Shown: one piece after another, positions 13,759 to 60,633 of the stretch | Layout: the number at the start of each line of letters is the position of its first letter | Numbering within the stretch: the first letter of the stretch is position 1 | From: Candidatus Planktophila vernalis | Lineage (GTDB): Bacteria; Actinomycetota; Actinomycetes; Nanopelagicales; Nanopelagicaceae | Direction of reading: 5' to 3' | Assembly (NCBI RefSeq): GCF_002288185.1 | Contig: NZ_CP016776.1 | Span: forward strand, 1-64,000 | DNA length: 64,000 nucleotides | Translations under genes and position numbers: made by a program | Notes under the pieces: generated by a model | The model's database searches: none | Told to the model about the DNA's origin: nothing | Seen by the model: the letters and a program-made list of their open reading frames with translations, nothing else

Positions 13759-13791
13759 GGGCATAAGCCTAACCCCTGTTAATCTTTAATC
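13759..13791. promoter_or_regulatory. Divergent leaderless promoters, pstP and glycerophosphodiesterase
   Basis: Within this 33-bp gap, TAATCT (13780-13785, plus strand) ends six bases before the ATG at 13792. TAGGCT (13766-13771, minus strand) ends seven bases before the pstP ATG at 13758. Each places the transcription start at or beside a start codon. The -35 region of each would fall around or inside the other gene's start region. Confidence 0.5.
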
Positions 13792-38899: not shown

Positions 38900-38923
38900 G
38901 AAGGAAAGGTACGCTCTCCCATC
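38900..38923. promoter_or_regulatory. Overlapping divergent promoters, kynU and ABC-F gene
   Basis: The whole divergent gap is 24 bp. Minus-strand TACCTT occupies 38906-38911 and plus-strand TACGCT 38910-38915; they share the central TA. The spacings to the start codons are six bases (kynU) and eight bases (ABC-F). Two polymerases could not use both at once. Confidence 0.5.
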
Positions 38924-56289: not shown

Positions 56290-56753
56290 ATCCAGTAGAT
56301 GTCCGTGCAAAGCTAAAAGAACTTGGTTTAGAGCTGCCAGTTGCTGCAAAGCCAGTTGCTGCTTATGTTCCAGCGATTCGCACAGGAAATATTGTTTTCA
56401 CTGCCGGACAACTTCCACTTGTGAACGGTGAAATGGCTGGAGTCGGAAAAGTTGATGGAGAAATAACTCCAGAGCGCGCAAAGGAATTAGCACAGGTGTG
56501 TGCACTCAATGCATTAGCTGCAGTTGAAACTGTTGCAGATGTAAACAAGATTACAAAGATTGTTCGAGTTGTTGGCTACGTCAATGGTGTTCCTGGCTAT
56601 ATCAACGCACCAGTGGTTGTTAATGGGGCAAGTGAGCTGTTCTTGGCAATCTGGGGCGATGGTGCAAAGCATGCACGTAGCGCGGTTGGAATTGCAGAAT
56701 TGCCATTGAATTCACCTGTTGAAATTGAACTCACAGTAGAAATTACAGACTAA
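56286..56753 (+). CDS. RidA family protein
   Basis: RidA proteins hydrolyse reactive enamine/imine intermediates from PLP enzymes. The 155-residue protein belongs to the longer subgroup seen in Actinobacteria, with AAYVPAIRTGNIVFTAGQLPL and the end GIAELPLNSPVEIELTVEI. The conserved arginine of canonical RidA lies at RSAVGIAELP. The start at 56286 overlaps the preceding gene; the longer frame from 56211 covers that gene and is not used. The stop abuts the convergent crp gene. Confidence 0.92.
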   Translation: MNPVDVRAKLKELGLELPVAAKPVAAYVPAIRTGNIVFTAGQLPLVNGEMAGVGKVDGEITPERAKELAQVCALNALAAVETVADVNKITKIVRVVGYVNGVPGYINAPVVVNGASELFLAIWGDGAKHARSAVGIAELPLNSPVEIELTVEITD

Positions 56754-57437
56754 CTACTTACCGCGCTTAGCTAGGCGTTCAAAATCTGTAATCAAAACTG
56801 CACGTCCATCAAGCTTTAACCAGTTACGTCCTGCGAAGTCTGCAAGGGCTTTATTAACTGTTTCGCGAGATGCGCCAACAAGTTGCGCAAGCTCTTCCTG
56901 TGTTAAATCATGGTGAACGTATAAACCTTCATCAGTTTTCTTACCAAAGCGCTCACCTAGATCAATTAACGCTTTTGCAACACGTCCTGGAACATCAGAG
57001 AAAACAAGATCGCCCACAGCTTCATTTGTGCGACGAAGGCGTTGTGCCAAGCGAGCTAGTAAATGAAGTGCGACATCAGGATTTTCGCGAAGCCAAGGAA
57101 GAAGCTTTGCTTGTCCAAGACTTAAAAGTTTTGCATCGGTAACTGCAGTTGCAGTTGATGTGCGTGGGCCTGGATCAAAGAGGCTGAGTTCGCCAAACAT
57201 TTCGCCAGGTCCAAGAATTGATAGAAGATTTTCACGTCCATCACCACTTGAAGTTCCAAGCTTGAGCTTTCCTTCAACAATTACGTATAGGTGATCACCA
57301 TCTGCGCCTTCGGCAAATAATACGCTTCCCTTGGATATCTTCACTAAATCCATCTGTGCGCGAAGAGAAGCCGAAGCGGCTTCATCAAGGGCGGTAAAGA
57401 GCGGTGCTCTGTGTACGGCATCTAAATCTATGGTCAC
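56754..57437 (-). CDS. crp: Crp/Fnr family transcription regulator
   Basis: A cyclic-nucleotide-responsive regulator like mycobacterial CRP (Rv3676). The 227-residue protein has a cNMP-binding domain (about 10-125) with GDHLYVIVEGKLKL, PGEMFGELSLFDPGPRTSTATA (the phosphate-binding cassette) and a C-terminal winged helix with LTQEELAQLVGASRETVNKALADF. The intact cassette (GELSLFD..RTSTA) suggests it still binds cAMP. The GTG start follows a TAAAGT -10 by seven bases. It is divergent from nth across 18 bp, an arrangement also found in mycobacteria. Confidence 0.95.
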   Translation of the reverse strand: MTIDLDAVHRAPLFTALDEAASASLRAQMDLVKISKGSVLFAEGADGDHLYVIVEGKLKLGTSSGDGRENLLSILGPGEMFGELSLFDPGPRTSTATAVTDAKLLSLGQAKLLPWLRENPDVALHLLARLAQRLRRTNEAVGDLVFSDVPGRVAKALIDLGERFGKKTDEGLYVHHDLTQEELAQLVGASRETVNKALADFAGRNWLKLDGRAVLITDFERLAKRGK

Positions 57438-57455
57438 GGGTAGTACTTTAGCCTC
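57438..57455. promoter_or_regulatory. Overlapping divergent leaderless promoters, crp and nth
   Basis: The whole divergent gap is 18 bp. TACTTT (57444-57449, plus) ends six bases before the nth ATG. TAAAGT (57445-57450 read on the minus strand) ends seven bases before the crp GTG. The two -10 hexamers are almost the same base pairs read in opposite directions, so polymerase can open only one at a time. Confidence 0.55.
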
Positions 57456-58154
57456 ATGCCCGCAGATAGCGAAACCCGAAAAGAGGCTCGGGCTGTGTAT
57501 CGTATTTTGAGCAAGACATACCCAGAGATCCGCTGTGAACTAGATTTTAAGAATCCACTGGAGTTAATAGTTGCTACCGTCTTGAGCGCACAGTGCACAG
57601 ATAAGAGAGTTAACACCATTACCCCGGCTCTGTTTAAGAAGTATAAAACTGCAAAAGCATATGCAGGAGCAGATATTCATCAACTCGAAGAACTGGTGTT
57701 TCAAACTGGTTTTTATCGTGCAAAGGCCCGTCATATAAAGGGAATTGGTATCAAATTACTCGAGGATTTCAATGGAGAAGTTCCCAGCACTCTTGAAGAG
57801 TTAATTACTCTGCCAGGAGTTGGTCGCAAAACTGCAAACGTTGTTTTAGGTCATGCTTTTGATATTCCTGGAATCACAGTTGACACACATTTTGGTCGCT
57901 TATCTCGTCGCTTTGGTTGGACTAAAGAGATGGATCCAGTAAAGGTAGAACGCATAGTTGGTGAGTTAATTCCTCAAAAGGAATGGACAAACTTGTCACA
58001 GCGAATGATTTGGCATGGTCGACGTATCTGCCATTCACGCAAGCCTGCTTGCGGTGCATGCCCCGTTGCAAAGATGTGCCCAAGTGTTGGTATTGGTGAA
58101 ATGGATGTTGCCAAGGCAAAGTTGTTAGTTAAGACGGATAAGGACTTTCGATGA
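57456..58154 (+). CDS. nth: Endonuclease III
   Basis: A bifunctional DNA glycosylase/AP lyase that removes oxidised pyrimidines. The 232-residue protein has the helix-hairpin-helix [17 protein letters not shown] with the catalytic lysine, the catalytic Asp in [15 protein letters not shown] and a C-terminal [4Fe-4S] loop [17 protein letters not shown] (spacing C-x6-C-x2-C-x5-C). It overlaps the next gene by four bases. A TACTTT -10 element six bases upstream supports the ATG. Confidence 0.96.
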
Positions 58155-58675
58155 AGAGAGTAGCTATTGCAGTTGCAGTGTTACTGCTTGCTGGATGCTC
58201 TTCTCCTTCAGAAAAAGTTGCCGGTCAAGTTGTTTCCTGTGAAAGTATTTTAAGTAGCACAACAGAAAACTCACTGGTTCTTAATTGTTTAGATGGTGGT
58301 GCTGGTGCCTCAATAGATTCAATCAAGGGTCCAGCAATTATTAATGTGTGGGGATCATGGTGTGGTCCATGTGAAGAGGAGATGCCTATATTGCGATCTT
58401 TCTATGAAAAAGCTCAAGGTAAAGTCTTGTTAATAGGTGTTGATGTTGAAGAGGCTTCAATTGAAGATGGCCGTGAGTTTGTAGAAAACAATGGAATTAC
58501 TTGGCCCAATCTTTTTGATGCAGATGGCAAATCCCGTGCTTACTTTGGAATGGGAGTTCCGGTTACATGGTTTATTGCACCCGATGGAAGCGTGGCCTAT
58601 AAACATATTGGTGTGCTGAAAAATGAAATTGAATTGATTTCACTTACATCTAAGCACTTAGGCGTGAAGCTTTAA
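58151..58675 (+). CDS. TlpA/ResA-like thioredoxin-fold lipoprotein
   Basis: An extracytoplasmic thiol-disulfide protein. The 174-residue sequence starts with a lipoprotein signal [16 protein letters not shown]; the lipobox LAGC ends at Cys16. The thioredoxin-like domain has the redox motif WCGPC (Cys71, Cys74) and the cis-Pro region [12 protein letters not shown]. Two more cysteines (30 and 46) precede the active site and may form a structural disulfide. Nth followed by such a gene is a conserved actinobacterial pair. A role in cytochrome c maturation or protein folding is possible. The 3' end overlaps the convergent acs gene by four bases. Confidence 0.92.
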
Positions 58676-60633
58676 TCCTCAGATTTTGCGCTCTGTAAGC
58701 CCTCTGAAATCAACTTCATAACATTTGGATCAGCCAATGTTGTGGCATCTCCTACTACTCGGTTTTCAGCGACATCTTTGAGAAGTCTGCGCATGATTTT
58801 GCCACTTCGAGTCTTGGGAAGCTCATTCACAATCAAAATCTGACGAGGCTTAGCAATTGCACCAATTTCCTTAGTAACGTGATTACGTAGCGCTTTATTG
58901 AGTTCTTCTCCATCGGCATGTTCAATGCCTCCACGCAATATCACGAACGCAACAATTCCTTGGCCCGTCATTGCATCTGCAGCGCCAACAACGGCAGCTT
59001 CTGCAACTGCTTCATGCGAAACGAGTGCAGACTCAACTTCAGTAGTTGAAATGCGGTGACCGGAAACATTCATAACATCATCGACTCGGCCTAATAGCCA
59101 GATAGCACCGTCATTATCAAGCTTTGCACCGTCACCGGCAAAGTAAATTCCTTCAAAGCGAGACCAATACGTCTCTTTATATCGTTCATTCTCACCCCAA
59201 ATACCGCGCAGCATTGATGGCCAGGGTTGATCAAGAATTAAGTAACCACCATGTCCTTTACCAACTGGCACTGCATTGTCATCGACTACTTTGGCACTTA
59301 TTCCAGGAAGGGCAGTCATTGCTGAACCTGGTTTAGTTGCAGTTACTCCAGGCAATGGTGAAATCATGATTGCACCAGTTTCAGTTTGCCACCATGTGTC
59401 AACAATTGGACAACGGTTTCCACCAATAACTTCTCGGTACCACATCCACGCTTCAGGATTAATTGGTTCACCAACAGAGCCCAGTAAGCGAAGTGATGAA
59501 AGATCATGTGCTTGAGGAAATTCATCGCCCCACTTCATCCATGTGCGAATAAGAGTTGGTGCTGTATACAAAATAGTGACGCCATATTTAGCGATTAATT
59601 CAAAGATTCGTCCTTTGTGCGGAGTATCTGGAGTTCCTTCATACATCACTTGTGTTGCACCGTTAATTAGTGGCCCATAAACAATGTATGAATGACCAGT
59701 TACCCAGCCAACATCTGCTGTGCACCAATAAACATCGGTTTCAGGTTTAATGTCGAAAACCATTTTGTGGGTGTATGCCACCTGCGTTAGGTAGCCGCCG
59801 GTAGTGTGAAAAATACCTTTTGGCTTAGCCGTGGTGCCTGATGTATACAAAATGAAGAGCGGGTGCTCAGAATCAAAGCTTTCTGCCACATGTTCACTTG
59901 ATTGGCGGCCAACAATTTCATGCCACCAAACATCGCGCTCAGTCCAAGCAGTTTCTTGCTTTGTGCGTTGCACAACTAAAACCTTTTCAACATTATGTTT
60001 ACCTTTGAGCGCCTCATCAACTGCAGGCTTTAATGCAAAAGCTGCACCTTTTCTAAATCCACCATCGGCAGTAATAACAATTTTTGCATCTGCATCTTGA
60101 ATACGTGACAACAGCGCATCTGCAGAAAAACCGCCAAAGACAACAGAGTGCGGTGCACCCATGCGTGCACAAGCCAACATTGCAACTGCGGCCTCTGGAA
60201 TCATTGGCATATAAATTGCGACGCGATCTCCAGCTTTAACTCCAAGTTCAATCAATGCATTAGCTGTTTTCTTAACGTCAGTTAATAACTCGGCATAAGT
60301 GATTGTGCGTGTGTCTCCAGGTTCGCCTTCAAAATGAAAAGCAACACGGCTTCCGCGACCTTCACTCACATGTCGGTCAAGTGCATTCACTGAGGCGTTT
60401 AATTTTCCACCGATAAACCATTTGGCATACGGTGGTTGCCAATCCAAAGTTTTATTCCAAGGCGTATCCCACTGCAATGACTTTGCTTGTTCATCCCAAA
60501 AAGCTAGACGATCTTTTTCAGCACGAGCATAAAGATCAGGCTGCGCATTTGCAGCTGCAGCAAACTGGGCACTTGCAGGAAATGTGCGATCTTCGCTCAA
60601 TAAGTTTTCTAAGGACTCATGGTCTTGGCTCAT
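58672..60633 (-). CDS. acs: Acetyl-CoA synthetase
   Basis: The enzyme activates acetate to acetyl-CoA through acetyl-AMP. The 653-residue protein has the adenylation motifs LFILYTSGTTAKPKGIFHT, WWQTETGAIMISPLPG, IYFAGDGAKLDNDG and the C-terminal PKTRSGKIMRR, whose lysine is the known acetylation site that switches off the enzyme in other bacteria. The tryptophan in the acyl pocket (VDTWWQTETG) fits acetate. A TAATCT -10 lies eight bases ahead of the ATG and a purine-rich AAAGG slightly further up. Confidence 0.96.
   Translation of the reverse strand: MSQDHESLENLLSEDRTFPASAQFAAAANAQPDLYARAEKDRLAFWDEQAKSLQWDTPWNKTLDWQPPYAKWFIGGKLNASVNALDRHVSEGRGSRVAFHFEGEPGDTRTITYAELLTDVKKTANALIELGVKAGDRVAIYMPMIPEAAVAMLACARMGAPHSVVFGGFSADALLSRIQDADAKIVITADGGFRKGAAFALKPAVDEALKGKHNVEKVLVVQRTKQETAWTERDVWWHEIVGRQSSEHVAESFDSEHPLFILYTSGTTAKPKGIFHTTGGYLTQVAYTHKMVFDIKPETDVYWCTADVGWVTGHSYIVYGPLINGATQVMYEGTPDTPHKGRIFELIAKYGVTILYTAPTLIRTWMKWGDEFPQAHDLSSLRLLGSVGEPINPEAWMWYREVIGGNRCPIVDTWWQTETGAIMISPLPGVTATKPGSAMTALPGISAKVVDDNAVPVGKGHGGYLILDQPWPSMLRGIWGENERYKETYWSRFEGIYFAGDGAKLDNDGAIWLLGRVDDVMNVSGHRISTTEVESALVSHEAVAEAAVVGAADAMTGQGIVAFVILRGGIEHADGEELNKALRNHVTKEIGAIAKPRQILIVNELPKTRSGKIMRRLLKDVAENRVVGDATTLADPNVMKLISEGLQSAKSED

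Follow-up and report, generated by a model that had tools for sequence, protein, structure and literature searches.

A putative bidirectional -10 element between the divergent leaderless-type genes crp and nth in Candidatus Planktophila vernalis and its genus

The crp-nth locus

The window analysed here is the first 64 kb of the single-contig genome of Candidatus Planktophila vernalis (Nanopelagicaceae, Actinomycetota; 1,364,004 bases), and within it the genes crp and nth diverge from a very short intergenic gap (Table 1). The product of crp, a Crp/GlxR-type regulator, scores 105 bits with the NCBIfam CRP equivalog model, short of its 266-bit cut-off. Despite the presence of such a regulator, a search of the whole genome for a class III adenylate cyclase (PF00211) gave no match, while the control search in Corynebacterium glutamicum was positive. 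On the other side, the overlap between nth, encoding endonuclease III, and the following gene for a TlpA/ResA-like oxidoreductase suggests that the two probably share a single transcript, and the label of a 'repair/thiol operon' given to this unit by an earlier reading of the DNA letters (the sequence-only reading) is a fair one. The flanking genes are also tightly placed: the stop codons of crp and of a RidA/YjgF-like gene abut at 56753-56754 with zero bases between them, and an acetate-CoA ligase gene (58672-60633, minus strand) overlaps the 3' end of the TlpA-like gene by 4 bp (58672-58675).

Table 1 Features of the crp-nth locus, with three divergent gaps of the same geometry elsewhere in the genome
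Feature	Position	Strand	Details
crp, Crp/GlxR-type regulator	56754..57437	-	227 aa; GTG start; Pfam cNMP_binding and HTH_Crp_2; mRNA expected to be leaderless
Weak -35 candidate for nth, TCTAAA	57421..57426	+	17-bp spacer; within crp codons 4-6
Intergenic gap crp/nth	57438..57455		18 bp between start codons; GGGTAGTACTTTAGCCTC
Heptamer TACTTTA (TANNNTA)	57444..57450		-10 core common to both predicted promoters
TACTTT, predicted -10 of nth	57444..57449	+	Ends 6 nt before the ATG at 57456; spacer of 6 bases, 57450-57455
TAAAGT, predicted -10 of crp	57445..57450	-	Ends 7 nt before the GTG at 57437-57435; spacer of 7 bases, 57444-57438
nth, endonuclease III	57456..58154	+	232 aa; ATG start; TIGR01083, 260 bits (cut-off 212); mRNA expected to be leaderless
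Weak -35 candidate for crp, TTCGCT	57468..57473	-	17-bp spacer; within nth codons 5-6
TlpA/ResA-like thiol-disulfide oxidoreductase	58151..58675	+	4-bp overlap of its ATG with the nth stop
MobA-like transferase / TIGR03767 metallophosphoesterase	genome 968323-968346		TAGGATA; 18-bp gap
Biotin ligase (birA) / carboxyltransferase	genome 1088805-1088828		TACCGTA; 18-bp gap
IU nucleoside hydrolase / ribokinase	genome 1099518-1099541		TAGCCTA; 18-bp gap

Two hexamers of the form TANNNT occupy the centre of the gap on opposite strands, with five bases in common and seven spanned together, at exactly the positions and spacings, to the base, that the sequence-only reading had given. Overlap of opposite-strand -10 elements in the same base pairs is the hallmark of a bidirectional promoter with a shared -10, and the placement of TANNNT at 6 (nth) or 7 (crp) nt before the start codon is that of a leaderless actinobacterial promoter. 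The gap, read by eye, contains no Shine-Dalgarno sequence on either strand. The T at -18 that is usual, although not required, in bidirectional promoters is absent for nth, position 57438 being a G on the plus strand. The two start codons lie 19 positions apart in the window, as against 18 at loci with 17-bp gaps, so that the crp transcript may have an additional base at its 5' end or a start displaced by one base; if both mRNAs begin at their start codons, the predicted distance between transcription start sites (TSSs) is 19 in the window and exactly 18 at the 17-bp gaps. A sigma-70 consensus scan of 56900-58000 returned no promoter; it is uninformative for TANNNT promoters because it demands matches to TTGACA and TATAAT that have no counterpart in these -10s.

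Leaderless-type signals and conservation of the shared core

In Actinobacteria, a TANNNT some 12 bp upstream of the start codon is described as the mark of leaderless genes, with no conserved -35 at leaderless promoters in Mycobacterium tuberculosis, and about a fifth of actinobacterial genes are predicted to be leaderless (PMC3160421, PMC3898074). A literature search on Nanopelagicales and Planktophila found no paper on leaderless genes, transcription start sites or intergenic promoters. We surveyed the signal in 40 separate 20-kb stretches together with the window (41 pieces, 864 kb), in which 769 genes were called from codon usage alone with upstream sequence ignored, by a crude caller that misses genes. 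Of the 166 divergently placed genes, 28% have a TANNNT that ends 6 nt upstream of the start and 9% one that ends 7 nt upstream, as against 0-4% at each remaining distance within 0-30 nt. Among all 728 genes with a defined upstream neighbour, it was found at 6 nt in 99 and at 7 nt in 43, and at the 24 starts facing divergent gaps of 10-40 bp the share rises to 71%. Depending on the class, 4-21% of starts are preceded by a simple Shine-Dalgarno motif, which coincides with the TANNNT signal in two cases only. This positional enrichment marks a TANNNT placed exactly 6-7 nt upstream of the start as a common leaderless-type signal of the Ca. P. vernalis genome.

Alignment of the gap in relatives, which the sequence-only reading had proposed as a check, bears out the shared -10 in every locus of the genus that was fetched. 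Matches to crp were found in 81 of 101 genomes of the genus, and the fetched subset of 51 genus-labelled loci uniformly shows a crp/nth gap of 17-19 bp (18 bp in 33 loci, 17 bp in 11 and 19 bp in 7) that contains TA[C/G]TTTA (C in 41 loci, G in 10). The crp start is GTG in all 51, the nth start is ATG in 49 and GTG in 2, and the gaps comprise 28 distinct sequences. This count by genus label, along with a second by homology distance, was made because a first rule for choosing start codons favoured TANNNT and so nearly forced the heptamer. When gap length was extrapolated solely from protein homology, 81 loci fell at 17-19 bp, and every one of them carries TA[C/G]TTTA; seven further loci at extrapolated distances of 25-38 bp are without the heptamer, and leaderless-type starts place their gaps at 55-56 bp. 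The fused form, as we call this arrangement, occurs in all 76 loci in which Crp identity exceeds 83.6%. Across the 81 fused loci, of which 25 have a 17-bp gap, heptamer positions 1, 2, 4, 5, 6 and 7 and the preceding G are invariant, position 3 is C (60 loci) or G (21), and most other columns of the gap vary.

These loci belong to two pooled collections, one of which holds 80 of at least 531 relatives. Together they contain 169 crp loci: 81 fused, 12 without a divergent nth, and 76 unfused loci with a divergent nth. In this last group TANNNT lies at 6/7 nt on both genes in 50 loci, whose start codons are 44-185 bp apart, on nth alone in 19 and on crp alone in 7. The collections overlap and the loci are related, so that independence of the counts cannot be assumed; they comprise 71 distinct coding sequences and 38 distinct gaps. 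As a control on start choice, the 6/7-nt spacing yields TANNNT for crp in 57 and for nth in 69 of the 76 unfused loci, compared with 0-3 and 1-8, respectively, for eight wrong spacer pairs. Thirteen other genera of the family contributed 38 loci, none of which is fused, and 31 of which bear separate 6/7-nt leaderless-type -10s on the two genes. The crp -10 is often TAAAGT in relatives too, as in GTCAC followed by GGGGGGACTTTACTAGC, and nth then has a separate -10 (TAGCCT, TAACCT or TAATCT) further to the right. Because no other sampled genus carries the fusion, the fused form is most simply explained as derived, through a putative loss of about 50 bp.

The relatives also provide a natural control. 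The first T of the heptamer is required by the nth direction alone and the last A by the crp direction alone. Both are fixed in the fused loci; among the 31 loci of the family whose promoters are separate, T stands beside the crp -10 in only 2 and A after the nth -10 in only 3 (2 and 4, respectively, in all 50 separate-promoter loci), and the base after a leaderless-type -10 is A in 26 of 148 instances in the Ca. P. vernalis genome. That these two bases are fixed when fused and free when separate is, to judge from the alignments, the strongest sign of constraint in both directions.

This contrast bears directly on a rival account, namely that a single -10 is in use and that the other gene is read, with a leader, from a promoter inside its neighbour. 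TANNNT alone is indeed only weakly informative, and would fit such an account as well. The account is nevertheless improbable: on each side, the base needed in one direction only is held when fused and free in relatives with separate promoters, each gene has its own 6/7-nt TANNNT in most unfused relatives, and a leader would find no Shine-Dalgarno sequence in the gap. Conservation of the core could also reflect the binding site of a regulator, for example a palindrome around GTAC, given that AGTACT is palindromic in the window's copy. We rejected a palindromic operator because GTAC is not conserved: it is broken by TAGTTTA in 21 of the 81 fused loci (10 of the 51 genus loci), where TANNNTA remains intact. 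Other gene pairs, moreover, carry TACCGTA, TAGCCTA or TAGGATA with the same anchors and spacing, and we give a regulator site very little credence as the reason for the conserved bases.

Other divergent pairs, predicted strength and competition

The geometry at crp/nth can be written as CAY-N5,6-TANNNTA-N5,6-RTG, a pattern that occurs at 8 places in the genome versus 14 for the reversed control pattern; across 40 genomes of the phylum there is likewise no clear excess in the raw count among the matches listed. With no such excess in the raw counts, the argument depends on how the pattern relates to gene starts and on its conservation. At each of the 8 places at least one side opens a frame of at least 77 codons, and 4 of the 8 join two long divergent frames. 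Within the 41 pieces the pattern lies at 5 places, with at least one end at a called start in 4 and both ends in 2, whereas at the 249 places matched by 12 control dinucleotide pairs at least one end coincides with a called start in 2 and both ends in none. TANNNT is short, and a resemblance arising by chance in an AT-biased gap deserves consideration, but the difference between 2 of 5 and 0 of 249, taken with the conservation, reduces its probability almost to nothing.

Three further pairs show the same geometry (Table 1). The carboxyltransferase beside birA is one that we take to be PccB/AccD5-like. TACCGTA is present in all 30 birA/carboxyltransferase loci fetched from the genus (57 of 59 genomes had a match), including loci with BirA identity down to 50%; the gap is 18 bp in 28 of them and 15 bp in the other 2, where the extrapolated start is one codon early. 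Four further birA loci of the genus have TACCTTA. The shared core of this pair extends to several genera of the family: the strict pattern was found in 25 of 30 fetched loci (48 of 61 genomes with a match), while 2 carry a heptamer within a gap of 20 bp and 3 are without one. In other families of the class the strict pattern is absent from all 25 loci inspected (the best 25 of 58 genomes with a match), 16 of which have a divergent birA with larger, roughly extrapolated gaps of 32-281 bp. For the nucleoside hydrolase/ribokinase pair, 30 genus loci (32 of 59 genomes with a match) comprise 23 with an 18-bp gap and TAGCCTA, 1 with TACCCTA, 4 with TAGCCTA and a longer ribokinase side, and 2 that are not divergent.

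Other short divergent gaps depart from this geometry to varying degrees. In the window, a 24-bp gap at 38900-38923 contains TACCTT (minus strand, 6 nt) and TACGCT (plus strand, 8 nt), which overlap by 2 bp with different spacing, and a 33-bp gap at 13759-13791 has two leaderless-type -10s that lie 8 bp apart. Near-fits in very short divergent gaps comprise one of 20 bp with TACTCTA (stretch L100, 9114-9133) and one of 17 bp with TAGGCTT (stretch L091, 12064-12080).

By a score built from the frequencies of the middle bases, which is not a measure of strength, TACTTT ranks lowest of 148 leaderless-type -10s and TAAAGT stands at the 21st percentile. Weak -35 candidates lie inside the opposite coding sequences (Table 1). 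Codon 6 of nth is GAA in 68 of the 70 distinct sequences that have Glu there, the highest value of seven conserved Glu columns, and crp codons 2-6 show a codon uniformity of 0.85-1.0, although only inside the subsets (34-54%) that share the residue. Mean codon uniformity over codons 2-16 versus 17-60 is 0.55 versus 0.46 for nth and 0.63 versus 0.48 for crp. Such codon conservation near the starts is no more than suggestive of intragenic -35s.

The sequence-only reading held that two leaderless promoters occupy the same base pairs, that they exclude each other, and that polymerase occupancy would thereby set Crp against the repair/thiol unit. Its first element agrees with the predicted promoters in all of the genus loci, and its second follows from the geometry, as has been stated for bidirectional promoters of Escherichia coli (PMC12825309). 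Its third, a regulatory switch, is unlikely in our estimation. Steric exclusion is to be expected, the layout is kept throughout the genus loci, and E. coli bidirectional promoters can be repressed in one direction when the other is activated; yet in that work basal activity was too low for competition at any of the five promoters assayed, and competition arose once one direction was activated (PMC12825309). At crp/nth, the low scores of the -10s point the same way, the same geometry joins pairs of enzymes as well, and no GlxR/Crp-like site with up to two mismatches to the consensus occurs in the 64-kb window, where 3.07 would be expected by chance. Regulation of Crp against the nth unit is thus unsupported.

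Proposed origin of the shared element and known systems

The interpretation that we favour, and consider very probable, is that positions 57444-57450 serve as one bidirectional -10 that starts two leaderless mRNAs, one running rightwards through nth and the TlpA-like gene and the other leftwards through crp, and that this element was derived by compaction. Sigma factor in one orientation would melt TACTTT, with transcription starting at or next to the nth ATG, and in the opposite orientation would melt TAAAGT, with a start at the crp GTG or no more than one base away from it. The T-A-T anchors on each strand would come from TANNNTA, which would set the starts about 18 bp apart. Because the heptamer with its spacings nearly fills the gap, 17-19 bp would be close to the floor for two divergent leaderless genes.

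In the proposed ancestral state there were two separate leaderless-type -10s, that of crp often being TAAAGT already. The former nth promoter would have disappeared with a deletion of roughly 50 bp; a T in front of ACTTTA, with a start codon 6-7 nt beyond the other side, would then have allowed nth to be read from the reverse face of the crp -10. Once formed, the fused core would have been held in both directions. Only one polymerase could engage it at a time, probably at little cost to either gene at the weak strength predicted, and the main effects would be economy of DNA and a ceiling common to both genes. Our expectation from the sequence is of two weak, nearly independent promoters with a joint ceiling set by one core.

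More tentatively, and with somewhat less than even confidence, we suggest that in the streamlined Nanopelagicaceae genome reduction ends in fused leaderless -10 cores instead of merely passing through them, with separate promoters brought together repeatedly on one TANNNTA at about 18 bp and the result kept for tying genes together, in a fixed ratio or in mutual exclusion. The idea of gene tying stems from the linked functions of two of the pairs, biotin ligase with a biotin-dependent carboxyltransferase and nucleoside hydrolase with ribokinase.

Bidirectional promoters with a shared, nearly symmetrical -10 have been described in E. coli and Salmonella by Warman, Grainger and colleagues, with TSSs 7-25 bp apart and most commonly 18, the distance at which positions -7 and -11 coincide reciprocally (PMC10268837, PMC12825309). 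The crp/nth element resembles them in its overlapping opposite-strand -10s, in a TSS distance predicted to be near 18 bp and in the coincidence of -7 and -11; the chromosomal enterobacterial examples also lie mostly between divergent genes (PMC12825309, PMC10268837). It differs in that both mRNAs are predicted from the sequence to be leaderless, so that the gap has room for scarcely anything beyond the promoter core, and in that the -18T, usual in the enterobacterial examples, is missing on the nth side.

A divergent promoter beside crp has a counterpart in E. coli, where an adjoining divergent RNA promoter, which is Crp-dependent and makes a short RNA, can occlude crp; here the divergent gene is nth, and the search of the window found no Crp site. 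The leaderless TANNNT promoters of Actinobacteria are described as one-direction signals (PMC3160421, PMC3898074), whereas at crp/nth one TANNNTA would serve two genes. Similar in layout is the divergent pair prpD/Rv1129c of M. tuberculosis, with leaderless mRNAs mapped on both sides, according to a figure legend that does not say whether its -10s overlap; the same source calls closely juxtaposed divergent promoters common (PMC3898074). With that pair already in print, the divergent leaderless layout as such is not new. The lysG/lysE pair is reported to have overlapping promoters in a 108-bp gap together with a separate leaderless promoter (PMC5648196). In a literature search we recognised no precedent for a leaderless bidirectional promoter, which does not prove that there is none. 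The kind of promoter is thus known; what appears to be new is that it is predicted to be leaderless on both sides, derived by compaction, and common to the genus loci examined.

The authors of the enterobacterial work suggest that promoters pass through a bidirectional state early in their evolution and that this state is subsequently lost or modified (PMC10268837). The crp/nth element, in contrast, looks derived from two promoters and is common to a genus. It would thus offer a case of a bidirectional promoter that can be traced to two one-way promoters and then became genus-wide, and is thus relevant to the question of whether selection favours such promoters or only tolerates them. A lower limit of about 17-18 bp between divergent leaderless genes is suggested as well, and the two-promoter and fused gaps of relatives constitute natural constructs for gauging polymerase competition at a global regulator.
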